Below, piece by piece: positions 1,943 to 54,353 of a stretch of DNA of 64,000 nucleotides. Location: NCBI GenBank assembly GCA_039654915.1, contig CM077593.1:55372501-55436500 (forward strand). Direction: 5' to 3'. A model generated the notes under the pieces. That model saw only the letters and a program-made list of their open reading frames with translations, searched no databases and was not told where the DNA came from. The DNA is from Aquilaria yunnanensis. Taxonomy: Eukaryota; Streptophyta; Magnoliopsida; Malvales; Thymelaeaceae. Every line of letters begins with the position of its first letter. Positions within the stretch are counted from its first letter, which is position 1. Position numbers and translations under genes: made by a program.

Positions 1943-1944
1943 GT

Positions 1945-1956
1945 TGGTATCAGAGC
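1945..1956 (+). other. Primer binding site (tRNA-iMet) of element A
   Basis: TGGTATCAGAGC is complementary to the 3' end of plant initiator-Met tRNA and lies 2 bp inside the 5' LTR, where minus-strand cDNA synthesis is primed. Confidence 0.9.
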
Positions 1957-5550: not shown

Positions 5551-5565
5551 TAAGGAGGGGGGAGC
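5551..5565 (+). other. Polypurine tract of element A
   Basis: TAAGGAGGGGGGAGC directly precedes the 3' LTR, the expected plus-strand priming site. Confidence 0.85.
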
Positions 5566-21796: not shown

Positions 21797-21920
21797 AACA
21801 ACCTGCAACCACAGCTAGACAACATTCCCCAGATGTTTGTCAGTACTAACTTCCTAGCACTTGGACTTTCCAACCTAGATCTCAGTCTTAGCCTCCAATA
21901 TTTATGAAATGAGTCCTTAA

Positions 21921-21932
21921 GCTCTGATACCA
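21921..21932 (-). other. Primer binding site (tRNA-iMet) of element B
   Basis: Plus reading GCTCTGATACCA, i.e. TGGTATCAGAGC on the coding strand, 7 bp inside the 5' LTR. Confidence 0.9.
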
Positions 21933-21939
21933 AAAACAC

Positions 21940-22707
21940 TGACACGACCGCCCGTGCCCCTGCCCGGGAAGCCCTGTGAGAGCTGGTCTCATGGTGGATT
22001 GCAGTTGGCTAGTTGTCTATGTGTGCGGATTAAATCCGATGGTACTAGTTGATTAACCTAGACTATGTAATATGCATCCTCTTATGCTTTGACTTGGTTT
22101 ATTAAAACCATAAAACATTAACCCGGCTGAGTAATTTCTACGGAAAATAAATACAAATAGCCAAAGCATATGAAATCAACATTTGCGTGAGTTTACTACA
22201 CATAACAACTCGTGAGAACATTCATACATAAAGTAGACTAATGCCCTCACCCAAGAGCAATCCTAGAGTCGAGGACTCGTCATAACATAGACTATGGAGG
22301 CAACTAAAATACTGTATAAATACAAGCATTTACTGAGATCTCTTTAGCCTAACTCCCACCTTGGATACATGTCCCAATGGTGAGTCTCAAAAGTCATTTG
22401 CCAAGGGCTACTAGGCTCTGTAGCCAGAGGAAGATACTAGTTAGTACTGTTACTTGACCAACAAGCCAACTAAGCACTTACGTAGACTAGAATCACAAGG
22501 ATTCTCAACTGTCATGCCTATACGCACAAAAGAACACTACCACGATAATCCTCAATGATTACCCGATCCAACAACTTCGGGCTCCGCATAACAAAACTAG
22601 GGAGTGAGAATTCGACAATTCTCAGTAAGGGATCTTCAATGTACCTGCAAGAAAATACAAGGACTTTTGCTGCGACCTCACATAGCACGAGGGTTCTATT
22701 CTATATG
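21940..22707 (-). repeat. 5' LTR of element B, inner piece
   Basis: Starts (plus reading) TGACACGACCG next to the primer site and runs to TCTATATG, where the array is inserted. Continues at 47233. Confidence 0.9.
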
Positions 22708-23484
22708 TGACAAGATCCCCGTGCCCCTGCCCGGGATACCCTGTGAGCGTTTGTCTCACGGTGGATTGTAATTGGCTAGCTGGTTATGTGTGTGGATTAA
22801 ATCCAATGCTACTAGTTGATTAACCTAGAAATGCAATATGTATGCACTTATGCTTTGACTTGGTTTATTAAAACCATAAAACATTTAATCATTTAGACAT
22901 TTAGCCGGCTAAGTAAAATTCTATATAAATAAATACAAAATGCCAAAGCATAGCAAAATCAACCTTTGAGTGATTAACTACACATACACCGCTCGTGAAA
23001 GCATTTATACATAAGTAACTAATGCTCTCACCCAGAGAACAATCCCCTGAGTCAAGGACTCTTTATAACATAAATACTGGAGGCAAAATAAAGTACTGTA
23101 TCAAAATACAAGACTTTGCTGAGATCTTTTACCCTAGCTCCCACTTTGGACTCCTGTCCCAGTGGCGAGTCTCACAAGTCCTTTGCCAAGTGCTACTAGG
23201 CTCTGCAGCCAAAGGAAGAAGCAAGTTAGTACCACAGCCTGACCAACAGACCAATTAAACACTTAAGCAGGCTAGAAACTTAAAGTTTCTCAACTACCGT
23301 ACCTTTACAGACAAAAAGGTACTACCGTGATAATCCTCAGTGATTATCCGGTCCTGCTACTCCAGACTCTGCATAACAAACAGGGAGTGAGAATTCAACA
23401 TTCTCAGTAAGGGTCTTCGATGTACCTGCAAGAAAAATTACTAGGACTCTGGCTGCGAGCTCACACAGCATGAGGGTACTAGTC

Positions 23485-23498
23485 ATATATATATATAC
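23485..23498 (-). promoter_or_regulatory. TATA-like AT run in array LTR 1
   Basis: Alternating AT run reading TAGTATATATATATATGAC on the coding strand, about 1.73 kb into the LTR. It lies just downstream of the tandem repeat, where a U3 promoter would be. Copies at 30821, 38157 and 45493; the one at 45493-45506, in the 5'-most LTR, is the one expected to start the first transcript. Inferred only. Confidence 0.45.
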
Positions 23499-23536
23499 TA
23501 GGCCGGTAGACCTCTCCTCAAGTAGTCCTTTGTATC

Positions 23537-23670
23537 AGGCCAAGTGCAATCACTTAGCAACCTGACACATATACAGGCCAAGCGCAATCACTTAGCAACC
23601 TGAAATGTAGGCCAAGCGCTATCACTTAGCAACCTATCATATGGCTCAAGGGCGAACCTTAGCAAGCCTC
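23537..23670 (-). repeat. U3 tandem repeat, four units, in array LTR 1
   Basis: Units start at 23537, 23575, 23609 and 23643 with lengths of about 38, 34 and 34 bp and a decayed last unit. Core: AGGCCAAGYGCAATCACTT then AGCAACCT. Same block in LTRs 2-4 at about 30873, 38209 and 45545. It lies next to the TATA-like run. The LTRs of elements B and D have different sequence at this place, so the repeat is specific to the young family. Confidence 0.85.
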
Positions 23671-24062
23671 ATTCAAACATAGAACCTCTCACCTAATTGT
23701 TATGCAGGGGAATTTATGATGGGACTTGTAGACTAGGCCGCAGGGCCTCTTTGATGTAAACTAGATGAACAAGGTTTCGCCTCGTGGCCTCGTGGCTCCG
23801 GCACGGCTAGGCCGACGAGGGTTCTAAACCTCTCACCTGAGCTATTGATAGCTAATTAAGTTCAATTGCAACATTTGTTTCCTTACTTGTTGCCTAAGCA
23901 ACTTACTTACCTCAAACAGTTCAAGAAAACTCATACTTCCGGTGGGACTTTCGGAAGTTTCGGAGTACCATCGGGATCCTCGGACCCTTAGGCACGTTCC
24001 GAGCCTTCCGTAGTCTCGGTCGGGTCAACGCAGCAAAAAGTCAAACCCTCCATTTTTAGGTG

Positions 24063-24188
24063 TTGGCGCCGCGTCGCCAAAGGCAAAAAGAATTGGCGAC
24101 ACGTCGCCGACGAACAAACGCTCTGTGACTGAAAATTGAATTGGCGACGCGTCGCCAATTTTCAGGCCAATTGGCGCCGCGTCGCCAA
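24063..24188. repeat. Cluster of four CpG-rich palindromes in array LTR 1
   Basis: Four 18-bp motifs at 24063-24080, 24093-24110, 24141-24158 and 24171-24188. The third is a perfect palindrome, TTGGCGACGCGTCGCCAA, and stays perfect when extended to 22 bp with AATT ends; the others differ at one or two positions. Equivalent clusters start near 31399, 38735 and 46071. It lies in U3, about 600 bp upstream of the TATA-like run on the coding strand. Short frames reading WRRVAN or ATRRQ repeats are translations of this motif. Confidence 0.85.
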
Positions 24189-25176
24189 TTCTGCAGAAAT
24201 GCAGAATTTGGCCGATTGCTGCTACGAACTTTGGCAACCAAATACATATAGCAAACATGCATCAAAAGTTACCAAATTTCATACACATGAAGTACATGTT
24301 GCAAGGAACAAAACCAACTATCAAAGCCAAACTATGATGCATTAGAAGCATCAAACCAACCCTTCGAATTTAGCTAGTCCATCATAATTCCCAAAACGTT
24401 TCTTCATACCATAACCAAAAATTACTCAACTTTCTCAATCCATTTCAATCCAAAAGCAATCCAACAACTTAAAAACACTTTCTCCCTTACCTTAACACCA
24501 AGAACAAGCAAGAATTCGAACCCTTCCTCTTCCAAACAAGCTTCCAAAGTTCTACACAAATTCAAACCAAAACAAAGCTCCTAAACATCAAAAACACCTC
24601 TTTCAACCAAAACCCAAGCTTCCAATCAATCAAATAACATGAATTCAATCAAGAACATGAATCATACCTCGTTCAAAAACAGGGGATGGAGAAAAACGCC
24701 TTTCCAAGCTTCAAAAACATGGATTTAAGCTTGAAAATCACTTCTCCAAGCTTATACACCCTTAATTGCGCCTCTTGACACCAAGATCACTTGATTCCAA
24801 GTTCAATTTGAGAGAGAAATGAGTGAGGGAAGCTTAAGAACGTGTTAATGGCAGCTTCTCCCCCTCTTTCCCTTCTTAAACCCTCACTTAGCAACCAAGA
24901 TCACCAAGGTTTCAAGCTAAGTGCAATTAGGTCCCCCATCTTTGTAACTTGACAATTCTTGATTAAATCCTTGTCTATTTGTTGAGTTTGAGTTAAGGTT
25001 AAAAGTTAAGTTCTAAAAATTCATTTTAAAACACTCGGGACTCGTCCCGGCCACTCAGGGTGCAAAATTACCATTTTGCCCCTGAACTTAGTTCAGAGCT
25101 TTATTCTTGTCGGAACTTAGTGAACTTTGGCAAACTTCTTAATTCTTGCTAGGCAAACTCAAATTAAACTTCTAAA

Positions 25177-28100
25177 CTAAATTCTAAAGTCCTTACCTCC
25201 CTCTAGAAGGGCCGTAACATTCTCCCCTCCTTCTGGAATTTGGTCCCCCAAATTCCGCTGCAACTCTGGAAAAACACCAGGATATCTTTTCAGCATATCC
25301 TGCTCCGTCTCCCAGGTAGCTTCCTCCTCACTATGGTTAGACCAAAGGATCTTAACCATCGGAATCCACTTAGTCCGCAGTTTCTTGACTTGCCTATCCA
25401 AAATCTGAACTGGTTTCTCTTCATAAATCAAGTCCTCCTGAATGGGTATCACTGAAGGATTTACTACCTGTCCGGGCTCAACTGTGCACTTCCTGAGTAA
25501 ACTAACGTGAAACACATTGTGCACTTGAGAAAGGTTAGGCGGTAAAGCCAACCGATAAGCAACTTTCCCAACTTTCTCTAACACTTCATAAGGTCCAATG
25601 AACCTTGGAGCTAACTTGCCCCTCTGTCCAAAACGACTAACTCCTCTCATGGGCGACACTTTCAGAAGTACTTTGTCACCAACCTCAAAACTCAATTCTC
25701 TTCTCCTTCTGTTTGCATACTTAGTCTGTCTGTCATTAGCTGTCTTGATTCTCTGCTGAATCAACTTAATCTTAGCTGTAGTGTCAGCTATGATCTCAGG
25801 TCCAATAACCACTCTGTCTGTTGGATCTGCCCAACAATGAGGTGTCATACACCGTCTCCCATACAAAGCTTCATAGGGCGCCATTCCAATAACAGATTGA
25901 TGACTGTTATTATAGGCAAACTCGATCAGTGGTAAGTGCTGATCCCAATCACCTCTGAAATCAATGACACACATGCGTAGCATGTCCTCCAAAGTATGAA
26001 TCACCCTCTCTGACTGTCCGTCAGTCTGTGGATGAAAAGCGGTACTGAGGCTAACTTTACTGCCCAATGCTTCCTGAAAAGCATTCCAAAACCGTGATGT
26101 AAATCGTGGATCTCTGTCTGATATGATTTGATCCGGTATCCCATGGAGTCTCACAATCTCCCTGAGATATAACTGAGCCAACCTCTCTAATGTGTAGGTG
26201 ACTCTGATCGGTATAAAGTGTGCTGACTTCGTCAATCTGTCAACCACTACCCAAATAGCATCATGCTGACTCCGGGTGGTCGGTAACCCCACTAGGAAAT
26301 CCATAGTAACGGATCCCCACTTCCTCACTGGTAGAGATAAACTCTGAAGTGTGCCTGCTGGTTTCTGGTGTTCAGCTTTCACCACCTGACATGTCAAACA
26401 CTTTGCCACATGTCCTCGTACATCTCTCTTCAGTCCTGGCCACCAAAAATGTGTCTTCAGATCTTGATACATCTTACTAACACCAGGGTGAATACTCAAT
26501 GTGCTGCTATGTGCCTCCTGTAGGACTTGCTGCCTAAGTCCCTCAACATTCGACACATAGAGTCGATCACCATAATGCAGTATTCCATCTTTGTACTTGA
26601 ACTCTTTCTTCAAAGCACCAGTCTTAGCTTCACCTGAAATCTTCTTCAACAATGGATCTTTCAACTGAGCTTCTCTGACTCTGGCTAACCAAGCCGTCTG
26701 AATCTCCAAAACGTAGACTAAGGATTTTTCTCGACTTTGCCATAATTCATGCAAAGCTAAGAAACAATCCTTCAATGCTCCTTCTGAAGAATCTGTAGCC
26801 TGATCCTTGGACAAGATCACTCCTGTGTACTTCCGACTCAAAGCATCTGCTACCACGTTCCCTTTACCAGCACAATACTCGATCGAACAATCATAATCTT
26901 TAATGTACTCAATCCATCGCCGCTGTTTCATGTTCAGATCCTTCTGAGTAAACAAATACTTCAAACTCTTGTGATCAGTGAAGATTCTGAACGATCTTCC
27001 CATCAAATAATGTCTCCATAGTTTCAGTGCAAAGATCACTGCTGCAAGCTCTAGATCATGAACAGGGTAGTTCAACTCATTAGGCCTCAACTGTCTCGAA
27101 CCATAAGCAATCACCTGACTGTCCTGATGTAGAACACAACCCAAACCTGAACCTGACGCATCAGTAAAAACTGTAAAGGCTCTGTCCGGGTCTGGTAACA
27201 CAAGTATAGGTGCACTGGTCAACTTTTCCTTCAGCTTCATGTAGGCTTCTTCACACTTCGGTGTCCACTCAAATTTCTGAGCTTCCCTGGTCAATGCTGT
27301 CAACGGCGTAGCTATCACAGAGAATTTCTCTATGAAGCGTCTGTAGTAACCTGCTAAACCCAAGAAACTCCTGACCTCTGTAACTGTAGTCGGTCTCTTC
27401 CAATCAACCACTGCTTGAACCTTTTCAGGATCAACTGACAAACCTTGAGCACTGATAATATGCCCCAAAAACTGAATCCTCTCGGACCAAAACTCACACT
27501 TAGAAAATTTTGCATAGTACTGATTATCCTTCAGCACTTGCAAAACCGTTCTAAGGTGCTCCTCATGCTCTGCTGTAGACTGTGAATAGATCAGAATATC
27601 ATCGATGAAGACCTCAACAAACTGATCCAGAAATGGCTTAAAGATCCGATTCATAGCTTCCATAAACACTGCTGGAGCATTAGTCACACCAAAAGGCATA
27701 ACCGTATACTCATAATGCCCGTACCTTGTCCTGAAGGCAGTCTTCGGAATGTCTTCCTCCTTAACTCTGATCTGAAAATACCCAGACCGAAGATCAATCC
27801 TGGAAAACACTCTCGCTCCTCTGAGTCTGTCAAACAAATCATCAATTCTAGGAAGTGGATACTTATTCTTAACTGTCACTGCATTCAACTTCCTGTAATC
27901 GATGCACAACCTGAAAGTTCCATCTTTCTTCTTCACAAATAATACTGGAGCTCCCCACGGTGATACACTCGGTCTTATGAAACCTTTCCCTAGCAGTTCC
28001 TCCAACTGCTTCTTCAACTCATCCATCTCAGGAGCCGACATCCTATAAGGTGGTACTGAAATAGGCTCAACCCCTGGTTGCAGATGGATAGCAAACTCAG

Positions 28101-29901
28101 TATCCCTCCTAGGTGGTAACCCAGGTAACTCCACTGGAAACACCTCAGGAAACTGATTAGCTACAGGAATGCTTCCCAACTCTTCCTCTATAGCTACTCC
28201 ATTCAACAAGTAATACTCCTCTTCACCCACTACAGGGATGGTATCTACAAGTCTAAGGTGTAAACTCTTAGCACTAGATGCCAACCCTCCTGTGCAAGTC
28301 ACTCTAGCCCCCTGAGCATCAATGATGTCAACTGAGTGATTCGCACAGTTAATTTGTGCCTTGTGCTTACTCAACCAATCCATTCCCAGCACCAGGTCAT
28401 ATGATTTCAACTCAATAACCCACAACTCACAACAAAAGTCATGATCACCTAACTGCAAAGGATACCTAGTAACCACTTCATTGGTCACAATAAAACCTCT
28501 CCCTGCAGTCCTGATGAGTCTCAACTCACCCGCAATTTCACGCTGTAAACTATGCTTATCTACCAAGGCAGAAGATATCACTGAAAGAGTAGCTCCCGTA
28601 TCGAAAAGCACTCTAACACTACTGCTCAGAAAAGTAAAATTACCTCGTACAGCTGGCGGTTCTCTGGCCGCCTGGTTCGTCAAAGCGAACACTCTTGGGT
28701 TCACTGCTGCAGCAACTACTCCAGGCCGGTTCCCAATGGCAAGCGGTACTGGAGGTAAAACCCGAGATGGACCTGTAACTGAACGAACTCTTGGGCAGTC
28801 CCTGGCCCACTGCCCTCTCTGACCACAGACATTACAAATATCTGTGCCCAGTGTACATGGTCTTCCACCATGGAACCGTCTGCACCTAGGACACACACCT
28901 GTCCTCCTCTTCTTAGATGGATCCTGGTTCCCTACCATTGGTCGCTTTCCAGCACTTTTCCCCAAGTTAGATGGCCCAGCTTCCACCTTTTTCACAGGTG
29001 CTCTGGAATCCTCGAATTCCCTTTCCAATGCCAATGCCTTCTGAACCATCTGGCGATAACTCCTGATGTCAACTGTCGCCATATACCTCCTGAAAATAGG
29101 CTTCAGGCCCTGGGAAAACTTCTTGGCTTTCAACTCCTCATTTCCCAACATATATGGAGCATACCGGATAAGTGAATTGTATCGCTGCTCATACTCTCGT
29201 ACTGACATCTCCCCCTGTGTCAGATTCTCAAACTGGATCCTCCTCTGATCCTGTGCAGCTTCACTGATATACTCCTGTCTGAACTTCTTCTCGAAGTCTG
29301 TCCACTTGAGCACCTTTTTCTTGTGCTCTGGACGAGTACCATTACTCTCCCTCAATAACTCCATCACATCGTCCCACCAAAGACTGGCTCTCCCTCTCAG
29401 AAAGAAAGGTACTAGAACCATCCTCTGCTCTGTCTCATAACCACCACAAGTAAAGAGGCGGTTCATAACAAACAACCAATCCTCTGCTCTATCAGGATCT
29501 CCTGTCCCGTCGAAGCTAGGTGGATCAACTGTCTTAAACTTTTCCAGCAACCTCATCTGATGTGGAGTGTCTCCCCTCCTTGGAGCCTCCATCATCTCTG
29601 GTTCCTCAACCTCCTCAAGAACTTGATTTCTGGGTTCTTGAGCTCTAGGCACTTGCTGTTGCTCAGCATGCCTTTCCTGTTCCTGTTGTGGCTCAACTTC
29701 CTCCTGGGCAACATCTCTGTCCCCATAATCTCTGAACATCTCTGTTACAAGAGTGTTCATACCCTGTGCCACCTGAGACATAGTCTCAGTCAAACTCTGT
29801 AGCACTCTGGATATCTCATCCAACCTCGCCACAACTGGGTCACTAGAACCTTCACCAGGTTCCCTAGTCCCCCTCGAAGTTCCAGACCTAGTATCAACCA
29901 T
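25177..29901 (-). CDS. gag-pol: Gag-pol polyprotein, array unit 1 (intact)
   Basis: Single intact frame of 1574 residues. I start at the ATG at 29901 (MVDTRSG); the frame is open a little further up only from a TTG. Order, with residues: Gag core about 120-250 (WW at 175-176), first Cys/His motif 337-349 (C-X2-C-X3-H-X4-C), second knuckle 356-369, protease DTG at 434-436, RT with FIDD (Asp 767 and 768), RNase H Asp 914, integrase HHCC finger then Asp 1201, Asp 1262 and Glu 1298 (35 residues between the last two), a GPYEVL module, and a chromodomain-like tail about 1498-1546. This is the Ty3/Gypsy order, and the tail fits the Tekay chromoviruses. The second knuckle reads [14 protein letters not shown]: Gln replaces the zinc-binding His. 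The stop lies 43 bp inside the LTR. Unit-specific bases: TREAQKF (others TRKAQKF) and LALPPNL (others LALLPNL). Confidence 0.95.
25220..25234 (-). other. Polypurine tract, array unit 1
   Basis: Coding strand AGAAGGAGGGGAGAA directly before the LTR. Same in units 2 and 3 at 32556-32570 and 39892-39906. Confidence 0.88.
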
Positions 29902-30024
29902 GATAACCTGCAACCACAACCAGACAACATTTCCCCAGATGTTGGTCAGTACTAACTTCCTAGCACTTGGACTTTACTACTAGATCTCAGTCTAAGCCTC
30001 CAATATCCATGAAATAAACCCTTA

Positions 30025-30036
30025 GCTCTGATACCA
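30025..30036 (-). other. Primer binding site (tRNA-iMet), array unit 1
   Basis: TGGTATCAGAGC on the coding strand, 7 bp inside LTR 2, which serves as the 5' LTR of unit 1. Confidence 0.9.
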
Positions 30037-30043
30037 AGAACAC

Positions 30044-32555
30044 TGACACGATCCCCGTGCCCCTGCCCGGGATACCCTGTGAGCGTTTGTCTCACGGTGG
30101 ATTGTAATTGGCTAGCTGGTTATGTGTGTGGATTAAATCCAATGCTACTAGTTGATTAACCTAGAAATGCAATATGTATGCACTTATGCTTTGACTTGGT
30201 TTATTAAAACCATAAAACATTTAATCATTTAGACATTTAGCCGGCTAAGTAAAATTCTATATAAATAAATACAAAATGCCAAAGCATAGCAAAATCAACC
30301 TTTGAGTGATTAACTACACATACACCGCTCGTGAAAGCATTTATAGATAAGTAACTAATGCTCTCACCCAGAGAACAATCCCCTGAGTCAAGGACTCTTT
30401 ATAACATAAATACTGGAGGCAAAATAAAGTACTGTATCAAAATACAAGACTTTGCTGAGATCTTTTACCCTAGCTCCCACTTTGGACTCCTGTCCCAGTG
30501 GCGAGTCTCACAAGTCCTTTGCCAAGTGCTACTAGGCTCTGCAGCCAAAGGAAGAAGCAAGTTAGTACCACAGCCTGACCAACAGACCAATTAAACACTT
30601 AAGCAGGCTAGAAACTTAAAGTTTCTCAACTACCGTACCTTTACAGACAAAAAGGTACTACCGTGATAATCCTCAGTGATTATCCGGTCCTGCTACTCCA
30701 GACTCTGCATAACAAACAGGGAGTGAGAATTCAACATTCTCAGTAAGGGTCTTCGATGTACCTGCAAGAAAAATTACTAGGACTCTGGCTGCGAGCTCAC
30801 ACAGCATGAGGGTACTAGTCATATATATATATACTAGGCCGGTAGACCTCTCCTCAAGTAGTCCTTTGTATCAGGCCAAGTGCAATCACTTAGCAACCTG
30901 ACACATATACAGGCCAAGCGCAATCACTTAGCAACCTGAAATGTAGGCCAAGCGCTATCACTTAGCAACCTATCATATGGCTCAAGGGCGAACCTTAGCA
31001 AGCCTCATTCAAACATAGAACCTCTCACCTAATTGTTATGCAGGGGAATTTATGATGGGACTTGTAGACTAGGCCGCAGGGCCTCTTTGATGTAAACTAG
31101 ATGAACAAGGTTTCGCCTCGTGGCCTCGTGGCTCCGGCACGGCTAGGCCGACGAGGGTTCTAAACCTCTCACCTGAGCTATTGATAGCTAATTAAGTTCA
31201 ATTGCAACATTTGTTTCCTTACTTGTTGCCTAAGCAACTTACTTACCTCAAACAGTTCAAGAAAACTCATACTTCCGGTGGGACTTTCGGAAGTTTCGGA
31301 GTACCATCGGGATCCTCGGACCCTTAGGCACGTTCCGAGCCTTCCGTAGTCTCGGTCGGGTCAACGCAGCAAAAAGTCAAACCCTCCATTTTTAGGTGTT
31401 GGCGCCGCGTCGCCAAAGGCAAAAAGAATTGGCGACACGTCGCCGACGAACAAACGCTCTGTGACTGAAAATTGAATTGGCGACGCGTCGCCAATTTTCG
31501 GGCCAATTGGCGCCGCGTCGCCAATTCTGCAGAAATGCAGAATTTGGCCGATTGCTGCTACGAACTTTGGCAACCAAATACATATAGCAAACATGCATCA
31601 AAAGTTACCAAATTTCATACACATGAAGTACATGTTGCAAGGAACAAAACCAACTATCAAAGCCAAACTATGATGCATTAGAAGCATCAAACCAACCCTT
31701 CGAATTTAGCTAGTCCATCATAATTCCCAAAACGTTTCTTCATACCATAACCAAAAATTACTCAACTTTCTCAATCCATTTCAATCCAAAAGCAATCCAA
31801 CAACTTAAAAACACTTTCTCCCTTACCTTAACACCAAGAACAAGCAAGAATTCGAACCCTTCCTCTTCCAAACAAGCTTCCAAAGTTCTACACAAATTCA
31901 AACCAAAACAAAGCTCCTAAACATCAAAAACACCTCTTTCAACCAAAACCCAAGCTTCCAATCAATCAAATAACATGAATTCAATCAAGAACATGAATCA
32001 TACCTCGTTCAAAAACAGGGGATGGAGAAAAACGCCTTTCCAAGCTTCAAAAACATGGATTTAAGCTTGAAAATCACTTCTCCAAGCTTATACACCCTTA
32101 ATTGCGCCTCTTGACACCAAGATCACTTGATTCCAAGTTCAATTTGAGAGAGAAATGAGTGAGGGAAGCTTAAGAACGTGTTAATGGCAGCTTCTCCCCC
32201 TCTTTCCCTTCTTAAACCCTCACTTAGCAACCAAGATCACCAAGGTTTCAAGCTAAGTGCAATTAGGTCCCCCATCTTTGTAACTTGACAATTCTTGATT
32301 AAATCCTTGTCTATTTGTTGAGTTTGAGTTAAGGTTAAAAGTTAAGTTCTAAAAATTCATTTTAAAACACTCGGGACTCGTCCCGGCCACTCAGGGTGCA
32401 AAATTACCATTTTGCCCCTGAACTTAGTTCAGAGCTTTATTCTTGTCGGAACTTAGTGAACTTTGGCAAACTTCTTAATTCTTGCTAGGCAAACTCAAAT
32501 TAAACTTCTAAACTAAATTCTAAAGTCCTTACCTCCCTCTAGAAGGGCCGTAACA
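30044..32555 (-). repeat. Array LTR 2 (shared by units 1 and 2)
   Basis: 2512 bp, starts TGACACGATCC and ends GGCCGTAACA in the plus reading. It has TTTATAGATAAG near 30340, shared with LTR 3; LTRs 1 and 4 have TTTATACATAAG. Confidence 0.95.
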
Positions 32556-35500
32556 TTCTCCCCTCCTTCTGGAATTTGGTCCCCCAAATTCCGCTGCAAC
32601 TCTGGAAAAACACCAGGATATCTTTTCAGCATATCCTGCTCCGTCTCCCAGGTAGCTTCCTCCTCACTATGGTTAGACCAAAGGATCTTAACCATCGGAA
32701 TCCACTTAGTCCGCAGTTTCTTGACTTGCCTATCCAAAATCTGAACTGGTTTCTCTTCATAAATCAAGTCCTCCTGAATGGGTATCACTGAAGGATTTAC
32801 TACCTGTCCGGGCTCAACTGTGCACTTCCTGAGTAAACTAACGTGAAACACATTGTGCACTTGAGAAAGGTTAGGCAGTAAAGCCAACCGATAAGCAACT
32901 TTCCCAACTTTCTCTAACACTTCATAAGGTCCAATGAACCTTGGAGCTAACTTGCCCCTCTGTCCAAAACGACTAACTCCTCTCATGGGCGACACTTTCA
33001 GAAGTACTTTGTCACCAACCTCAAAACTCAATTCTCTTCTCCTTCTGTTTGCATACTTAGTCTGTCTGTCATTAGCTGTCTTGATTCTCTGCTGAATCAA
33101 CTTAATCTTAGCTGTAGTGTCAGCTATGATCTCAGGTCCAATAACCACTCTGTCTGTTGGATCTGCCCAACAATGAGGTGTCATACACCGTCTCCCATAC
33201 AAAGCTTCATAGGGCGCCATTCCAATAACAGATTGATGACTGTTATTATAGGCAAACTCGATCAGTGGTAAGTGCTGATCCCAATCACCTCTGAAATCAA
33301 TGACACACATGCGTAGCATGTCCTCCAAAGTATGAATCACCCTCTCTGACTGTCCGTCAGTCTGTGGATGAAAAGCGGTACTGAGGCTAACTTTACTGCC
33401 CAATGCTTCCTGAAAAGCATTCCAAAACCGTGATGTAAATCGTGGATCTCTGTCTGATATGATTTGATCCGGTATCCCATGGAGTCTCACAATCTCCCTG
33501 AGATATAACTGAGCCAACCTCTCTAATGTGTAGGTGACTCTGATCGGTATAAAGTGTGCCGACTTCGTCAATCTGTCAACCACTACCCAAATAGCATCAT
33601 GCTGACTCCGGGTGGTCGGTAACCCCACTAGGAAATCCATAGTAACGGATCCCCACTTCCTCACTGGTAGAGATAAACTCTGAAGTGTGCCTGCTGGTTT
33701 CTGGTGTTCAGCTTTCACCACCTGACATGTCAAACACTTTGCCACATGTCCTCGTACATCTCTCTTCAGTCCTGGCCACCAAAAATGTGTCTTCAGATCT
33801 TGATACATCTTACTAACACCAGGGTGAATACTCAATGTGCTGCTATGTGCCTCCTGTAGGACTTGCTGCCTAAGTCCCTCAACATTCGACACATAGAGTC
33901 GATCACCATAATGCAGTATTCCATCTTTGTACTTGAACTCTTTCTTCAAAGCACCAGTCTTAGCTTCACCTGAAATCTTCTTCAACAATGGATCTTTCAA
34001 CTGAGCTTCTCTGACTCTGGCTAACCAAGCCGTCTGAATCTCCAAAACGTAGACTAAGGATTTTTCTCGACTTTGCCATAATTCATGCAAAGCTAAGAAA
34101 CAATCCTTCAATGCTCCTTCTGAAGAATCTGTAGCCTGATCCTTGGACAAGATCACTCCTGTGTACTTCCGACTCAAAGCATCTGCTACCACGTTCCCTT
34201 TACCAGCACAATACTCGATCGAACAATCATAATCTTTAATGTACTCAATCCATCGCCGCTGTTTCATGTTCAGATCCTTCTGAGTAAACAAATACTTCAA
34301 ACTCTTGTGATCAGTGAAGATTCTGAACGATCTTCCCATCAAATAATGTCTCCATAGTTTCAGTGCAAAGATCACTGCTGCAAGCTCTAGATCATGAACA
34401 GGGTAGTTCAACTCATTAGGCCTCAACTGTCTCGAACCATAAGCAATCACCTGACTGTCCTGATGTAGAACACAACCCAAACCTGAACCTGACGCATCAG
34501 TAAAAACTGTAAAGGCTCTGTCCGGGTCTGGTAACACAAGTATAGGTGCACTGGTCAACTTTTCCTTCAGCTTCATGTAGGCTTCTTCACACTTCGGTGT
34601 CCACTCAAATTTCTGAGCTTTCCTGGTCAATGCTGTCAACGGCGTAGCTATCACAGAGAATTTCTCTATGAAGCGTCTGTAGTAACCTGCTAAACCCAAG
34701 AAACTCCTGACCTCTGTAACTGTAGTCGGTCTCTTCCAATCAACCACTGCTTGAACCTTTTCAGGATCAACTGACAAACCTTGAGCACTGATAATATGCC
34801 CCAAAAACTGAATCCTCTCGGACCAAAACTCACACTTAGAAAATTTTGCATAGTACTGATTATCCTTCAGCACTTGCAAAACCGTTCTAAGGTGCTCCTC
34901 ATGCTCTGCTGTAGACTGTGAATAGATCAGAATATCATCGATGAAGACCTCAACAAACTGATCCAGAAATGGCTTAAAGATCCGATTCATAGCTTCCATA
35001 AACACTGCTGGAGCATTAGTCACACCAAAAGGCATAACCGTATACTCATAATGCCCGTACCTTGTCCTGAAGGCAGTCTTCGGAATGTCTTCCTCCTTAA
35101 CTCTGATCTGAAAATACCCAGACCGAAGATCAATCCTGGAAAACACTCTCGCTCCTCTGAGTCTGTCAAACAAATCATCAATTCTAGGAAGTGGATACTT
35201 ATTCTTAACTGTCACTGCATTCAACTTCCTGTAATCGATGCACAACCTGAAAGTTCCATCTTTCTTCTTCACAAATAATACTGGAGCTCCCCACGGTGAT
35301 ACACTCGGTCTTATGAAACCTTTCCCTAGCAGTTCCTCCAACTGCTTCTTCAACTCATCCATCTCAGGAGCCGACATCCTATAAGGTGGTACTGAAATAG
35401 GCTCAACCCCTGGTTGCAGATGGATAGCAAACTCAGTATCCCTCCTAGGTGGTAACCCAGGTAACTCCACTGGAAACACCTCAGGAAACTGATTAGCTAC

Positions 35501-37237: not shown

Positions 37238-37360
37238 GATAACCTGCAACCACAACCAGACAACATTTCCCCAGATGTTGGTCAGTACTAACTTCCTAGC
37301 ACTTGGACTTTACTACTAGATCTCAGTCTAAGCCTCCAATATCCATGAAATAAACCCTTA

Positions 37361-37372
37361 GCTCTGATACCA
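37361..37372 (-). other. Primer binding site (tRNA-iMet), array unit 2
   Basis: Same 12-bp site as unit 1, 7 bp inside LTR 3. Confidence 0.9.
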
Positions 37373-37379
37373 AGAACAC

Positions 37380-39891
37380 TGACACGATCCCCGTGCCCCT
37401 GCCCGGGATACCCTGTGAGCGTTTGTCTCACGGTGGATTGTAATTGGCTAGCTGGTTATGTGTGTGGATTAAATCCAATGCTACTAGTTGATTAACCTAG
37501 AAATGCAATATGTATGCACTTATGCTTTGACTTGGTTTATTAAAACCATCAAACATTTAATCATTTAGACATTTAGCCGGCTAAGTAAAATTCTATATAA
37601 ATAAATACAAAATGCCAAAGCATAGCAAAATCAACCTTTGAGTGATTAACTACACATACACCGCTCGTGAAAGCATTTATAGATAAGTAACTAATGCTCT
37701 CACCCAGAGAACAATCCCCTGAGTCAAGGACTCTTTATAACATAAATACTGGAGGCAAAATAAAGTACTGTATCAAAATACAAGACTTTGCTGAGATCTT
37801 TTACCCTAGCTCCCACTTTGGACTCCTGTCCCAGTGGCGAGTCTCACAAGTCCTTTGCCAAGTGCTACTAGGCTCTGCAGCCAAAGGAAGAAGCAAGTTA
37901 GTACCACAGCCTGACCAACAGACCAATTAAACACTTAAGCAGGCTAGAAACTTAAAGTTTCTCAACTACCGTACCTTTACAGACAAAAAGGTACTACCGT
38001 GATAATCCTCAGTGATTATCCGGTCCTGCTACTCCAGACTCTGCATAACAAACAGGGAGTGAGAATTCAACATTCTCAGTAAGGGTCTTCGATGTACCTG
38101 CAAGAAAAATTACTAGGACTCTGGCTGCGAGCTCACACAGCATGAGGGTACTAGTCATATATATATATACTAGGCCGGTAGACCTCTCCTCAAGTAGTCC
38201 TTTGTATCAGGCCAAGTGCAATCACTTAGCAACCTGACACATATACAGGCCAAGCGCAATCACTTAGCAACCTGAAATGTAGGCCAAGCGCTATCACTTA
38301 GCAACCTATCATATGGCTCAAGGGCGAACCTTAGCAAGCCTCATTCAAACATAGAACCTCTCACCTAATTGTTATGCAGGGGAATTTATGATGGGACTTG
38401 TAGACTAGGCCGCAGGGCCTCTTTGATGTAAACTAGATGAACAAGGTTTCGCCTCGTGGCCTCGTGGCTCCGGCACGGCTAGGCCGACGAGGGTTCTAAA
38501 CCTCTCACCTGAGCTATTGATAGCTAATTAAGTTCAATTGCAACATTTGTTTCCTTACTTGTTGCCTAAGCAACTTACTTACCTCAAACAGTTCAAGAAA
38601 ACTCATACTTCCGGTGGGACTTTCGGAAGTTTCGGAGTACCATCGGGATCCTCGGACCCTTAGGCACGTTCCGAGCCTTCCGTAGTCTCGGTCGGGTCAA
38701 CGCAGCAAAAAGTCAAACCCTCCATTTTTAGGTGTTGGCGCCGCGTCGCCAAAGGCAAAAAGAATTGGCGACACGTCGCCGACGAACAAACGCTCTGTGA
38801 CTGAAAATTGAATTGGCGACGCGTCGCCAATTTTCGGGCCAATTGGCGCCGCGTCGCCAATTCTGCAGAAATGCAGAATTTGGCCGATTGCTGGTACGAA
38901 CTTTGGCAACCAAATACATATAGCAAACATGCATCAAAAGTTACCAAATTTCATACACATGAAGTACATGTTGCAAGGAACAAAACCAACTATCAAAGCC
39001 AAACTATGATGCATTAGAAGCATCAAACCAACCCTTCGAATTTAGCTAGTCCATCATAATTCCCAAAACGTTTCTTCATACCATAACCAAAAATTACTCA
39101 ACTTTCTCAATCCATTTCAATCCAAAAGCAATCCAACAACTTAAAAACACTTTCTCCCTTACCTTAACACCAAGAACAAGCAAGAATTCGAACCCTTCCT
39201 CTTCCAAACAAGCTTCCAAAGTTCTACACAAATTCAAACCAAAACAAAGCTCCTAAACATCAAAAACACCTCTTTCAACCAAAACCCAAGCTTCCAATCA
39301 ATCAAATAACATGAATTCAATCAAGAACATGAATCATACCTCGTTCAAAAACAGGGGATGGAGAAAAACGCCTTTCCAAGCTTCAAAAACATGGATTTAA
39401 GCTTGAAAATCACTTCTCCAAGCTTATACACCCTTAATTGCGCCTCTTGACACCAAGATCACTTGATTCCAAGTTCAATTTGAGAGAGAAATGAGTGAGG
39501 GAAGCTTAAGAACGTGTTAATGGCAGCTTCTCCCCCTCTTTCCCTTCTTAAACCCTCACTTAGCAACCAAGATCACCAAGGTTTCAAGCTAAGTGCAATT
39601 AGGTCCCCCATCTTTGTAACTTGACAATTCTTGATTAAATCCTTGTCTATTTGTTGAGTTTGAGTTAAGGTTAAAAGTTAAGTTCTAAAAATTCATTTTA
39701 AAACACTCGGGACTCGTCCCGGCCACTCAGGGTGCAAAATTACCATTTTGCCCCTGAACTTAGTTCAGAGCTTTATTCTTGTCGGAACTTAGTGAACTTT
39801 GGCAAACTTCTTAATTCTTGCTAGGCAAACTCAAATTAAACTTCTAAACTAAATTCTAAAGTCCTTACCTCCCTCTAGAAGGGCCGTAACA
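37380..39891 (-). repeat. Array LTR 3 (shared by units 2 and 3)
   Basis: 2512 bp. Private bases include ACCATCAAAC near 37548 (others ACCATAAAAC) and GCTGGTACG near 38891 (others GCTGCTACG). Shares TTTATAGATAAG with LTR 2. Confidence 0.95.
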
Positions 39892-42800
39892 TTCTCCCCT
39901 CCTTCTGGAATTTGGTCCCCCAAATTCCGCTGCAACTCTGGAAAAACACCAGGATATCTTTTCAGCATATCCTGCTCCGTCTCCCAGGTAGCTTCCTCCT
40001 CACTATGGTTAGACCAAAGGATCTTAACCATCGGAATCCACTTAGTCCGCAGTTTCTTGACTTGCCTATCCAAAATCTGAACTGGTTTCTCTTCATAAAT
40101 CAAGTCCTCCTGAATGGGTATCACTGAAGGATTTACTACCTGTCCGGGCTCAACTGTGCACTTCCTGAGTAAACTAACGTGAAACACATTGTGCACTTGA
40201 GAAAGGTTAGGCAGTAAAGCCAACCGATAAGCAACTTTCCCAACTTTCTCTAACACTTCATAAGGTCCAATGAACCTTGGAGCTAACTTGCCCCTCTGTC
40301 CAAAACGACTAACTCCTCTCATGGGCGACACTTTCAGAAGTACTTTGTCACCAACCTCAAAACTCAATTCTCTTCTCCTTCTGTTTGCATACTTAGTCTG
40401 TCTGTCATTAGCTGTCTTGATTCTCTGCTGAATCAACTTAATCTTAGCTGTAGTGTCAGCTATGATCTCAGGTCCAATAACCACTCTGTCTGTTGGATCT
40501 GCCCAACAATGAGGTGTCATACACCGTCTCCCATACAAAGCTTCATAGGGCGCCATTCCAATAACAGATTGATGACTGTTATTATAGGCAAACTCGATCA
40601 GTGGTAAGTGCTGATCCCAATCACCTCTGAAATCAATGACACACATGCGTAGCATGTCCTCCAAAGTATGAATCACCCTCTCTGACTGTCCGTCAGTCTG
40701 TGGATGAAAAGCGGTACTGAGGCTAACTTTACTGCCCAATGCTTCCTGAAAAGCATTCCAAAACCGTGATGTAAATCGTGGATCTCTGTCTGATATGATT
40801 TGATCCGGTATCCCATGGAGTCTCACAATCTCCCTGAGATATAACTGAGCCAACCTCTCTAATGTGTAGGTGACTCTGATCGGTATAAAGTGTGCTGACT
40901 TCGTCAATCTGTCAACCACTACCCAAATAGCATCATGCTGACTCCGGGTGGTCGGTAACCCCACTAGGAAATCCATAGTAACGGATCCCCACTTCCTCAC
41001 TGGTAGAGATAAACTCTGAAGTGTGCCTGCTGGTTTCTGGTGTTCAGCTTTCACCACCTGACATGTCAAACACTTTGCCACATGTCCTCGTACATCTCTC
41101 TTCAGTCCTGGCCACCAAAAATGTGTCTTCAGATCTTGATACATCTTACTAACACCAGGGTGAATACTCAATGTGCTGCTATGTGCCTCCTGTAGGACTT
41201 GCTGCCTAAGTCCCTCAACATTCGACACATAGAGTCGATCACCATAATGCAGTATTCCATCTTTGTACTTGAACTCTTTCTTCAAAGCACCAGTCTTAGC
41301 TTCACCTGAAATCTTCTTCAACAATGGATCTTTCAACTGAGCTTCTCTGACTCTGGCTAACCAAGCCGTCTGAATCTCCAAAACGTAGACTAAGGATTTT
41401 TCTCGACTTTGCCATAATTCATGCAAAGCTAAGAAACAATCCTTCAATGCTCCTTCTGAAGAATCTGTAGCCTGATCCTTGGACAAGATCACTCCTGTGT
41501 ACTTCCGACTCAAAGCATCTGCTACCACGTTCCCTTTACCAGCACAATACTCGATCGAACAATCATAATCTTTAATGTACTCAATCCATCGCCGCTGTTT
41601 CATGTTCAGATCCTTCTGAGTAAACAAATACTTCAAACTCTTGTGATCAGTGAAGATTCTGAACGATCTTCCCATCAAATAATGTCTCCATAGTTTCAGT
41701 GCAAAGATCACTGCTGCAAGCTCTAGATCATGAACAGGGTAGTTCAACTCATTAGGCCTCAACTGTCTCGAACCATAAGCAATCACCTGACTGTCCTGAT
41801 GTAGAACACAACCCAAACCTGAACCTGACGCATCAGTAAAAACTGTAAAGGCTCTGTCCGGGTCTGGTAACACAAGTATAGGTGCACTGGTCAACTTTTC
41901 CTTCAGCTTCATGTAGGCTTCTTCACACTTCGGTGTCCACTCAAATTTCTGAGCTTTCCTGGTCAATGCTGTCAACGGCGTAGCTATCACAGAGAATTTC
42001 TCTATGAAGCGTCTGTAGTAACCTGCTAAACCCAAGAAACTCCTGACCTCTGTAACTGTAGTCGGTCTCTTCCAATCAACCACTGCTTGAACCTTTTCAG
42101 GATCAACTGACAAACCTTGAGCACTGATAATATGCCCCAAAAACTGAATCCTCTCGGACCAAAACTCACACTTAGAAAATTTTGCATAGTACTGATTATC
42201 CTTCAGCACTTGCAAAACCGTTCTAAGGTGCTCCTCATGCTCTGCTGTAGACTGTGAATAGATCAGAATATCATCGATGAAGACCTCAACAAACTGATCC
42301 AGAAATGGCTTAAAGATCCGATTCATAGCTTCCATAAACACTGCTGGAGCATTAGTCACACCAAAAGGCATAACCGTATACTCATAATGCCCGTACCTTG
42401 TCCTGAAGGCAGTCTTCGGAATGTCTTCCTCCTTAACTCTGATCTGAAAATACCCAGACCGAAGATCAATCCTGGAAAACACTCTCGCTCCTCTGAGTCT
42501 GTCAAACAAATCATCAATTCTAGGAAGTGGATACTTATTCTTAACTGTCACTGCATTCAACTTCCTGTAATCGATGCACAACCTGAAAGTTCCATCTTTC
42601 TTCTTCACAAATAATACTGGAGCTCCCCACGGTGATACACTCGGTCTTATGAAACCTTTCCCTAGCAGTTCCTCCAACTGCTTCTTCAACTCATCCATCT
42701 CAGGAGCCGACATCCTATAAGGTGGTACTGAAATAGGCTCAACCCCTGGTTGCAGATGGATAGCAAACTCAGTATCCCTCCTAGGTGGTAACCCAGGTAA

Positions 42801-44573
42801 CTCCACTGGAAACACCTCAGGAAACTGATTAGCTACAGGAATGCTTCCCAACTCTTCCTCTATAGCTACTCCATTCAACAAGTAATACTCCTCTTCACCC
42901 ACTACAGGGATGGTATCTACAAGTCTAAGGTGTAAACTCTTAGCACTAGATGCCAACCCTCCTGTGCAAGTCACTCTAGCCCCCTGAGCATCAATGATGT
43001 CAACTGAGTGATTCGCACAGTTAATTTGTGCCTTGTGCTTACTCAACCAATCCATTCCCAGCACCAGGTCATATGATTTCAACTCAATCACCCACAACTC
43101 ACAACAAAAGTCATGATCACCTAACTGCAAAGGATACCTAGTAACCACTTCATTGGTCACAATAAAACCTCTCCCTGCAGTCCTGATGAGTCTCAACTCA
43201 CCCGCAATTTCACGCTGTAAACTATGCTTATCTACCAAGGCAGAAGATATCACTGAAAGAGTAGCTCCCGTATCGAAAAGCACTCTAACACTACTGCTCA
43301 GAAAAGTAAAATTACCTCGTACAGCTGGCGGTTCTCTGGCCGCCTGGTTCGTCAAAGCGAACACTCTTGGGTTCACTGCTGCAGCAACTACTCCAGGCCG
43401 GTTCCCAATGGCAAGCGGTACTGGAGGTAAAACCCGAGATGGACCTGTAACTGAACGAACTCTTGGGCAGTCCCTGGCCCACTGCCCTCTCTGACCACAG
43501 ACATTACAAATATCTGTGCCCAGTGTACATGGTCTTCCACCATGGAACCGTCTGCACCTAGGACACACACCTGTCCTCCTCTTCTTAGATGGATCCTGGT
43601 TCCCTACCATTGGTCGCTTTCCAGCGCTTTTCCCCAAGTTAGATGGCCCAGCTTCCACCTTTTTCACAGGTGCTCTGGAATCCTCGAATTCCCTTTCCAA
43701 TGCCAATGCCTTCTGAACCATCTGGCGATAACTCCTGATGTCAACTGTCGCCATATACCTCCTGAAAATAGGCTTCAGGCCCTGGGAAAACTTCTTGGCT
43801 TTCAACTCCTCATTTCCCAACATATATGGAGCATACCGGATAAGTGAATTGTATCGCTGCTCATACTCTCGTACTGACATCTCCCCCTGTGTCAGATTCT
43901 CAAACTGGATCCTCCTCTGATCCTGTGCAGCTTCACTGATATACTCCTGTCTGAACTTCTTCTCGAAGTCTGTCCACTTGAGCACCTTTTTCTTGTGCTC
44001 TGGACGAGTACCATTACTCTCCCTCAATAACTCCATCACATCGTCCCACCAAAGACTGGCTCTCCCTCTCAGAAAGAAAGGTACTAGAACCATCCTCTGC
44101 TCTGTCTCATAACCACCACAAGTAAAGAGGCGGTTCATAACAAACAACCAATCCTCTGCTCTATCAGGATCTCCTGTCCCGTCGAAGCTAGGTGGATCAA
44201 CTGTCTTAAACTTTTCCAGCAACCTCATCTGATGTGGAGTGTCTCCCCTCCTTGGAGCCTCCATCATCTCTGGTTCCTCAACCTCCTCAAGAACTTGATT
44301 TCTGGGTTCCTGAGCTCTAGGCACTTGCTGTTGCTCAGCATGCCTTTCCTGTTCCTGTTGTGGCTCAACTTCCTCCTGGGCAACATCTCTGTCCCCATAA
44401 TCTCTGAACATCTCTGTTACAAGAGTGTTCATACCCTGTGCCACCTGAGACATAGTCTCAGTCAAACTCTGTAGCACTCTGGATATCTCATCCAACCTCG
44501 CCACAACTGGGTCATTAGAACCTTCACCAGGTTCCCTAGTCCCCCTCGAAGTTCCAGACCTAGTATCAACCAT
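39849..44573 (-). CDS. gag-pol: Gag-pol polyprotein, array unit 3 (intact, 5'-most)
   Basis: Intact 1574-residue frame with the same domain order and catalytic residues as unit 1. Private changes: GEGSNDP near the N-terminus (others GEGSSDP), plus silent bases near 43626 (CAGCGCTTTT) and 44310. It shares TRKAQKF and LALLPNL with unit 2. It is the first unit on the coding strand, fed by LTR 4. The second Gag zinc knuckle again has Gln in place of His, so that change predates the array's expansion. Confidence 0.95.
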
Positions 44574-44696
44574 GATAACCTGCAACCACAACCAGACAAC
44601 ATTTCCCCAGATGTTGGTCAGTACTAACTTCCTAGCACTTGGACTTTGCTACTAGATCTCAGTCTAAGCCTCCAATATCCATGAAATAAACCCTTA

Positions 44697-44708
44697 GCTC
44701 TGATACCA
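44697..44708 (-). other. Primer binding site (tRNA-iMet), array unit 3
   Basis: Same 12-bp site, 7 bp inside LTR 4, the 5'-most LTR on the coding strand. Confidence 0.9.
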
Positions 44709-44715
44709 AGAACAC

Positions 44716-47227
44716 TGACACGATCCCCGTGCCCCTGCCCGGGATACCCTGTGAGCGTTTGTCTCACGGTGGATTGTAATTGGCTAGCTGGTTATGTGTG
44801 TGGATTAAATCCAATGCTACTAGTTGATTAACCTAGAAATGCAATATGTATGCACTTATGCTTTGACTTGGTTTATTAAAACCATAAAACATTTAATCAT
44901 TTAGACATTTAGCCGGCTAAGTAAAATTCTATATAAATAAATACAAAATGCCAAAGCATAGCAAAATCAACCTTTGAGTGATTAACTACACATACACCGC
45001 TCGTGAAAGCATTTATACATAAGTAACTAATGCTCTCACCCAGAGAACAATCCCCTGAGTCAAGGACTCTTTATAACATAAATACTGGAGGCAAAATAAA
45101 GTACTGTATCAAAATACAAGACTTTGCTGAGATCTTTTACCCTAGCTCCCACTTTGGACTCCTGTCCCAGTGGCGAGTCTCACAAGTCCTTTGCCAAGTG
45201 CTACTAGGCTCTGCAGCCAAAGGAAGAAGCAAGTTAGTACCACAGCCTGACCAACAGACCAATTAAACACTTAAGCAGGCTAGAAACTTAAAGTTTCTCA
45301 ACTACCGTACCTTTACAGACAAAAAGGTACTACCGTGATAATCCTCAGTGATTATCCGGTCCTGCTACTCCAGACTCTGCATAACAAACAGGGAGTGAGA
45401 ATTCAACATTCTCAGTAAGGGTCTTCGATGTACCTGCAAGAAAAATTACTAGGACTCTGGCTGCGAGCTCACACAGCATGAGGGTACTAGTCATATATAT
45501 ATATACTAGGCCGGTAGACCTCTCCTCAAGTAGTCCTTTGTATCAGGCCAAGTGCAATCACTTAGCAACCTGACACATATACAGGCCAAGCGCAATCACT
45601 TAGCAACCTGAAATGTAGGCCAAGCGCTATCACTTAGCAACCTATCATATGGCTCAAGGGCGAACCTTAGCAAGCCTCATTCAAACATAGAACCTCTCAC
45701 CTAATTGTTATGCAGGGGAATTTATGATGGGACTTGTAGACTAGGCCGCAGGGCCTCTTTGATGTAAACTAGATGAACAAGGTTTCGCCTCGTGGCCTCG
45801 TGGCTCCGGCACGGCTAGGCCGACGAGGGTTCTAAACCTCTCACCTGAGCTATTGATAGCTAATTAAGTTCAATTGCAACATTTGTTTCCTTACTTGTTG
45901 CCTAAGCAACTTACTTACCTCAAACAGTTCAAGAAAACTCATACTTCCGGTGGGACTTTCGGAAGTTTCGGAGTACCATCGGGATCCTCGGACCCTTAGG
46001 CACGTTCCGAGCCTTCCGTAGTCTCGGTCGGGTCAACGCAGCAAAAAGTCAAACCCTCCATTTTTAGGTGTTGGCGCCGCGTCGCCAAAGGCAAAAAGAA
46101 TTGGCGACGCGTCGCTGACGAACAAACGCTCTGTGACTGAAAATTGAATTGGCGACGCGTCGCCAATTTTCGGGCCAATTGGCGCCGCGTCGCCAATTCT
46201 GCAGAAATGCAGAATTTGGCCGATTGCTGCTACGAACTTTGGCAACCAAATACATATAGCAAACATGCATCAAAAGTTACCAAATTTCATACACATGAAG
46301 TACATGTTGCAAGGAACAAAACCAACTATCAAAGCCAAACTATGATGCATTAGAAGCATCAAACCAACCCTTCGAATTTAGCTAGTCCATCATAATTCCC
46401 AAAACGTTTCTTCATACCATAACCAAAAATTACTCAACTTTCTCAATCCATTTCAATCCAAAAGCAATCCAACAACTTAAAAACACTTTCTCCCTTACCT
46501 TAACACCAAGAACAAGCAAGAATTCGAACCCTTCCTCTTCCAAACAAGCTTCCAAAGTTCTACACAAATTCAAACCAAAACAAAGCTCCTAAACATCAAA
46601 AACACCTCTTTCAACCAAAACCCAAGCTTCCAATCAATCAAATAACATGAATTCAATCAAGAACATGAATCATACCTCGTTCAAAAACAGGGGATGGAGA
46701 AAAATGCCTTTCCAAGCTTCAAAAACATGGATTTAAGCTTGAAAATCACTTCTCCAAGCTTATACACCCTTAATTGCGCCTCTTGACACCAAGATCACTT
46801 GATTCCAAGTTCAATTTGAGAGAGAAATGAGTGAGGGAAGCTTAAGAACGTGTTAATGGCAGCTTCTCCCCCTCTTTCCCTTCTTAAACCCTCACTTAGC
46901 AACCAAGATCACCAAGGTTTCAAGTTAAGTGCAATTAGGTCCCCCATCTTTGTAACTTGACAATTCTTGATTAAATCCTTGTCTATTTGTTGAGTTTGAG
47001 TTAAGGTTAAAAGTTAAGTTCTAAAAATTCATTTTAAAACACTCGGGACTCGTCCCGGCCACTCAGGGTGCAAAATTACCATTTTGCCCCTGAACTTAGT
47101 TCAGAGCTTTATTCTTGTCGGAACTTAGTGAACTTTGGCAAACTTCTTAATTCTTGCTAGGCAAACTCAAATTAAACTTCTAAACTAAATTCTAAAGTCC
47201 TTACCTCCCTCTAGAAGGGCCGTAACA
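44716..47227 (-). repeat. Array LTR 4 (5'-most on the coding strand)
   Basis: 2512 bp, followed by the outer ATATG duplication. I count about six differences from LTR 1. Private changes include GACGCGTCGCTGACG in the palindrome cluster near 46104, AAAAATGCC near 46702 and CAAGTTAAGT near 46922. Confidence 0.95.
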
Positions 47228-47232
47228 ATATG

Positions 47233-54340: not shown

Positions 54341-54341
54341 G

Positions 54342-54353
54342 TGGTATCAGAGC
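54342..54353 (+). other. Primer binding site (tRNA-iMet) of element E
   Basis: TGGTATCAGAGC, 1 bp inside the 5' LTR. Confidence 0.92.

Follow-up and report, generated by a model that had tools for sequence, protein, structure and literature searches.

A three-unit tandem long terminal repeat retrotransposon in Aquilaria yunnanensis and its probable growth in place after one insertion

Introduction

Long terminal repeat (LTR) retrotransposons arranged in tandem have been published from plants with shared LTRs, target site duplications (TSDs) at the outer ends and a variable number of units, and in the portion of that work drawn on here they are common in rice, where they are also polymorphic, and occur in Arabidopsis, almond and cotton as well, with Tekay gypsy elements over-represented among the rice examples (PMC11899658). 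In the same portion its authors are undecided between complex insertion and recombination, leaving the origin of tandem elements unresolved. Here we analyse such a structure in a stretch of 64,000 nucleotides of Aquilaria yunnanensis (the window; assembly GCA_039654915.1, contig CM077593.1, positions 55,372,501 to 55,436,500 of the forward strand), which holds at 22708-47227, counted from its first letter, three units of an element that we class as a Ty3/gypsy chromovirus. We find that the array derives from one insertion, and the differences among its copies suggest that it probably grew in place from one unit to two and then to three by two unequal exchanges, the second of them inside the internal region.

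Results

Structure of the array and its insertion site

In the array four LTRs, each 2512 bp long, alternate with three internal regions, each 4824 bp long, with LTR start-to-start spacings of 7336, 7336 and 7336 bp (Table 1). Shifted by 7336 bp, it aligns to itself ungapped, without indels and with 21 mismatches within the array, in agreement with the original prediction, made from the letters of this DNA, of an LTR-int-LTR-int-LTR-int-LTR arrangement (int, internal region) of exact 7336-bp period; the repeat being 24.5 kb long and near-identical, a chance origin is not a concern. The LTR ends TG...CA, the primer binding site (PBS) TGGTATCAGAGC and a polypurine tract, which are the motifs expected of a Ty3/gypsy chromovirus, are all present when read on the minus strand, and the positions of the PBS and of the polypurine tract place the whole array in minus-strand orientation. 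We take the PBS to be that of initiator-Met tRNA.

The sequence ATATG is found as a duplication at the outer ends of the array only. The inner LTRs are flanked directly by internal sequence, GAACAC before and TTCTCC after, and therefore no duplication lies between the units. This rules out separate or nested insertions, as had been argued for separate ones.

Upon examining the flanks, we observe that the array has inserted into the right-hand LTR of a chromovirus that is older and decayed, has the same orientation and is itself bounded by the TSD GTGCA on both sides. This older element is 86% identical to unit 1 in the internal region and 79% identical in its left LTR, the identity between its own two LTRs is 92%, and its frames are disrupted, the three on the minus strand containing 33, 122 and 132 stops. 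Its left LTR retains the unoccupied paralogous target site with one ATATG, and of the flanks of the array one aligns to that LTR at 14721-15488 and the other from 15484 onwards, the 5 bp of overlap being precisely ATATG. Because the paralogous site is empty and the flanks overlap by 5 bp, the array derives from one insertion with a 5-bp duplication, and the proposed single ATATG duplication at the outer ends is thereby confirmed. The minus-strand orientation, the location inside another LTR and the superfamily are additions to the earlier account.

Differences among the copies and their polarity

We found 17 variable columns in the unit alignment, 9 among the 2512 LTR columns and 8 among the 4824 internal ones, and no indels. 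Seven of the eight internal changes fall within the gag-pol frame; three alter a residue and none creates a stop. The LTRs differ pairwise at 3 (LTR1-LTR2), 5 (LTR1-LTR3), 6 (LTR1-LTR4), 2 (LTR2-LTR3), 5 (LTR2-LTR4) and 7 (LTR3-LTR4) sites, LTR2-LTR3 being the closest pair and the outer pair, LTR1-LTR4, the second most distant, at 99.76% identity or 0.24% difference. For the internal regions the differences are 4 (1-2), 7 (1-3) and 5 (2-3), or 0.08-0.15%. The middle region matches internal region 3 at columns 2834, 4578 and 5710 and internal region 1 at columns 6247, 6931, 7136 and 7269, and it alone has C at column 3517 (33560 in the middle unit), where regions 1 and 3 have T. Column 303 is the sole two-two split among the LTRs, with C in LTR1 and LTR4 and G in LTR2 and LTR3.

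Polarity was read from older copies within the window. The minority base is derived at columns 6, 171, 1401, 1457, 1515, 2210, 5710, 6247 and 7136, where all aligned older copies agree. The G at column 303 is likewise derived, with C in three of three aligned older LTRs (two from one element), as are the A at column 2834 shared by internal regions 2 and 3 (G in the single older copy aligned) and the A at column 1394 in LTR1 to LTR3 (G in two of two copies, both from one element and poorly aligned locally). Clear polarity was lacking at column 1990 (C, T, T), at 6931 and 7269, which show a third base, and at 4578, which lies in a gap. Among protein homologues, 24 were found at 25-47% identity (7989 candidates scored), none close enough to polarise sites; a viral_contigs search for relatives gave five stretches that fit a pattern, none confirmed as a relative, and a plasmid search gave three records at 28-35% identity that were not useful.

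Comparison of models

Likelihoods were calculated under the Jukes-Cantor (JC) model with column-specific trees, breakpoints being scanned on coarse grids, and were compared by the Akaike information criterion (AIC). A star model reached a log likelihood of -10336.83 (1 parameter, AIC 20675.7) and a multimer model in which the inner and outer templates are distinct -10330.71 (2 parameters, AIC 20665.4), and two multimer variants with the outer LTRs youngest fitted slightly worse than this basic form. Stepwise growth with an exchange in the LTR gave -10327.13 and -10328.44 (5 parameters each, AIC 20664.3 and 20666.9). The best model was stepwise growth with an exchange in the internal region, at -10323.85 (5 parameters, AIC 20657.7), with an AIC gap of 6.6 to the best LTR-exchange version and of 7.7 to the multimer. 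Its gain of 13.0 log units over the star was matched in 0 of 200 star simulations and its gain of 6.9 log units over the multimer in 0 of 200 multimer simulations, these parametric simulations using an approximate likelihood.

An internal exchange one period off register in a two-unit array would leave one young period flanked by older differences. When the array is compared with itself at one period, 28418-36289 contains 3 differences, the 5.7 kb on its left 7 and the 3.6 kb on its right 11. Of the star simulations, 0.2-0.6% produced a one-period window with at most 3 differences, and 0.5% an identical change that arose more than once. As a control, the reversed internal chimera reverted to no chimera and lost 3.9 log units. 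Without column 303 the gain is 5.7 log units over either null, and without the six CpG-context columns the gain over the multimer is 4.3 log units.

Proposed history and alternative explanations

We propose that a single Ty3/gypsy chromovirus would have integrated once into the LTR of its older relative, the 5-bp duplication presumably being the work of the integrase. A first unequal homologous exchange, between two chromatids or homologues, may then have given LTR-int-LTR-int-LTR; we assume that it took place between LTRs because a single element has no other long direct repeat. A later unequal exchange, one period off register and with the crossover between unit columns 5710 and 6247, would have produced the third unit, such that the middle internal region would be chimeric, combining the left part of the right unit with the right part of the left unit, and both LTR2 and LTR3 would descend from one inner LTR. 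The substitution pattern points to this second exchange and appears to fit a sister chromatid as well as a homologue as the partner. The fitted divergences per lineage are 0.00136 substitutions per site for the insertion, 0.00072 for the step from one unit to two and 0.00020 for the step from two to three, which at an assumed substitution rate of 1.3e-8 per site per year correspond roughly to 100, 55 and 15 thousand years.

Several observations weigh against this history. It is read from assembled sequence alone and from 17 variable columns only, and the patterns were already known when the models were framed. Single-copy differences, compatible with any tree, make up 16 of the 17 columns, and column 303 alone excludes a star unless the change was repeated; the remaining support for stepwise growth comes from the positions of the differences. 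The main outgroup has diverged by 14% in the internal region and 21% in the LTR, the other outgroups by more, and local alignment to the older copies is poor at columns 1394, 1401, 1457 and 2210. At column 3517 the older element has C, as does the middle internal region, and a rooted stepwise model needs a repeated change to T, which is plausible at a CpG site. The reversed LTR mosaic reverts to no mosaic at a loss of only 0.9 log units, and therefore the first exchange is not localised; among six trial positions for it within the LTR, the profile changes by no more than 1.6 log units. The gain over the multimer is moderate, and without columns 303, 1394 and 2834 it drops to 4.1 log units. Gene conversion between units could leave similar marks.

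The most substantial alternative, which we consider unlikely, is that multimeric cDNA integrated as three units at once, having been made by template switching between RNAs packaged together or from a transcript that read through a circle or a tandem. It predicts the one TSD at the outer ends that is seen, two-unit complexes of the same anatomy have been explained in this manner (PMC1950507; discussion in PMC11899658), the outer LTRs are 99.76% identical, and intermolecular strand transfer could yield the pattern at column 303, where the outer LTRs both have C and the inner ones both have G. Reverse transcription makes the outer LTRs identical, however, and they would hence be expected to be the youngest and closest pair, whereas LTR1-LTR4 differ at 6 sites compared with 2 for LTR2-LTR3 and 3 for LTR1-LTR2; the AIC of the multimer is 7.7 worse and 0 of its 200 simulations match the stepwise advantage. 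Quite unlikely, in our judgement, is the recombination of same-family extrachromosomal DNA, either cDNA or a one-LTR circle, into a resident element after one insertion, as reported for yeast in papers cited in the portion of PMC11899658 used here. The same anatomy would arise without new TSDs, and cDNA of the resident copy itself would leave similar marks, but with foreign cDNA the divergence between internal regions would usually equal or exceed that of the LTR pair, and here the internal regions differ by 0.08-0.15% against 0.24% for the outer LTRs.

Since tandem repeats are difficult to assemble and the array is known from an assembly alone, we also weighed a true locus of one or two units expanded by the assembler, and hold this to be improbable: a simple consensus duplication would give identical copies, whereas 17 position-specific substitutions, without indels, follow a coherent order along the array. 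The usual account of shared-LTR complexes is recombination between neighbouring insertions, two or more in number, that arose independently, and PMC1950507 names it as their main source. It predicts different outer 5-mers, and with ATATG at both ends and the target LTR continuing across the array it is ruled out for practical purposes. Growth in place by two unequal exchanges is the history that we judge probable.

Gag-pol frames and family of the element

The three predicted gag-pol frames of 1574 residues are indeed intact, each starting with ATG and carrying a single stop, the terminal one, which lies inside the 3' LTR. Open reading frames (ORFs) 2 and 3 differ from ORF 1 at three residues altogether. 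Pfam matches were determined on the unit 1 frame, and on account of the domain order of gag, protease, reverse transcriptase (RT), RNase H, integrase and chromodomain, with the integrase core and chromodomain matches below their cut-offs (Table 1), we class the element as a Ty3/gypsy chromovirus. The long LTRs would at most be suggestive of the Tekay lineage. Approximately 5% of random substitutions in the ORF create a stop and seven substitutions remain stop-free about 70% of the time; therefore open frames are expected at the age of the array, and selection is not needed as the cause of all three being open.

Neighbouring elements in the window

Other elements surround the array and its older host. 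An LTR element with LTRs of about 1 kb (98.4% identical) and the TSD CCTTC on both sides occupies 922-6586; a gag-like ORF is recognised at 2857-4248, and the element may be non-autonomous because the two further ORFs tested (4306-4818 and 4784-5746) match no Pfam family. A copia element at 52924-60817, with LTRs about 97% identical and an imperfect TSD (GAAAT/GAAAC), has gag, integrase and RT matches in three separate ORFs. At 49181-50596 this copia family is represented by a solo LTR with a perfect TSD (AATAC), indicating loss of the LTR-recombination type 2 kb from an array that grew; the three copia LTRs at 49.2, 52.9 and 59.4 kb had been considered as a second tandem and are this solo LTR plus the separate copia element. 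Further inverted pieces are a fragment of a third chromovirus at 61068-63865, which shares 74-82% identity with the array unit and the older element and runs towards the window edge, an LTR relic at 51628-52946, and a partial copia LTR copy at 8264-9022 (93-94% identical).

Table 1. Features of the tandem array, its frames and its insertion site, in window coordinates or residues of the unit 1 frame.
Feature	Position	Strand	Basis or remark
Older decayed chromovirus	14721..48902	-	Holds array in right-hand LTR; TSD GTGCA both sides
Unoccupied paralogous target site	15484..15488	.	One ATATG, in left LTR of older element
TSD left copy, ATATG	22703..22707	.	Flank comparison
LTR1, outer	22708..25219	-	Repeat alignment; array 3' end in element orientation
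Internal region 1, 4824 bp	25220..30043	-	G at 25541, A in units 2 and 3
Polypurine tract region	25220..25245	-	Adjoins LTR1; identical in three units (no variable column)
Gag-pol ORF 1, 1574 aa	25177..29901	-	Last codons within LTR1
PBS	30025..30036	-	7 nt inside LTR2; identical in three units (no variable column)
LTR2, inner	30044..32555	-	Derived G at 30346 common to LTR3
Internal region 2	32556..37379	-	Left part int3-like, right part int1-like; switch between 35753 and 36290
Gag-pol ORF 2, 1574 aa	32513..37237	-	
LTR3, inner	37380..39891	-	G at 37682 common to LTR2
Internal region 3	39892..44715	-	
Gag-pol ORF 3, 1574 aa	39849..44573	-	
LTR4, outer	44716..47227	-	Array 5' end in element orientation
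TSD right copy, ATATG	47228..47232	.	Flank comparison
Retrotrans_gag	residues 163-268		Above Pfam cut-off
RVP_2	residues 401-528		Above Pfam cut-off
RVT_1	residues 656-816		Above Pfam cut-off
RT_RNaseH	residues 904-1003		Above Pfam cut-off
Integrase_H2C2 (integrase zinc-binding)	residues 1121-1176		Well above own cut-off
rve (integrase core)	residues 1198-1291		24.8 bits, below Pfam cut-off 32.6
SH3_Tf2-1	residues 1408-1472		Above Pfam cut-off
Chromo (chromodomain)	residues 1499-1541		24.3 bits, below Pfam cut-off 25.1

Discussion

The array is a well-preserved tandem LTR element of the published type, bearing on the open question of mechanism. Of the two routes first put forward, unequal recombination is favoured by the substitution pattern and multimeric cDNA is not, although the recombination had been placed between LTRs and the second exchange seems to lie inside the internal region. 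The rarity first ascribed to the locus appears to have been weighted too high: the part of PMC11899658 used here describes tandem LTR elements as common in plants, and at this age frames that are still open are to be expected. We do not claim priority for it as the first three-unit full-element array.

Three units expose chimeric middle copies, and therefore the two routes differ in which LTRs and which halves of the internal regions they predict to be closest. The locus can serve as a worked example, the same test being usable on any array with at least three units. With three open gag-pol frames at one site, transcript dosage could also be higher and further copies could be fed from it. More tentatively, and with somewhat less than even confidence, the locus might be regarded as a dated record of the birth of a long-unit satellite in a chromovirus-rich region, from one insertion and two successive unequal exchanges at different places, with all units still coding. 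If this is true, macrosatellites can be seeded by LTR elements without a multimeric intermediate, and the order of exchanges is readable from a single haplotype.

Among described systems, the array resembles the plant tandem LTR structures of Morales-Diaz et al. (2025, PMC11899658), as given in the portion of that paper compared here, in the alternation of LTRs and internal regions, the LTR at both ends, the shared LTRs and the perfect 5-nt TSD at the outer ends with none inside, which in our case is confirmed against an unoccupied paralogous site. Gypsy elements are prominent in that portion too, and one rice example is also nested in another transposon; unlike the locus described there, ours has three units, all frames are open and the substitution pattern orders the events. 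The template-switching complexes of Triticeae, rice and maize (Sabot and Schulman 2007, PMC1950507) share the inner LTR, complete cores, flanking TSD and similar outer LTRs, but have two cores where the array has three, and, contrary to the expectation that we draw from that mechanism, the outer LTRs of the array are not the closest pair. The complexes of adjacent insertions of Devos et al. (2002), to the extent that they are described in PMC1950507, have a shared inner LTR like the array but lack flanking TSDs. Finally, the Cassandra terminal-repeat retrotransposon in miniature (TRIM) arrays of Kalendar et al. (2020, PMC7215508), in the sections of that study considered, likewise alternate LTR and internal units, with a change of unit number by unequal exchange proposed there, but Cassandra is short, non-coding and present in up to 12 repeats, whereas the array described here has 7.3-kb units with full gag-pol.
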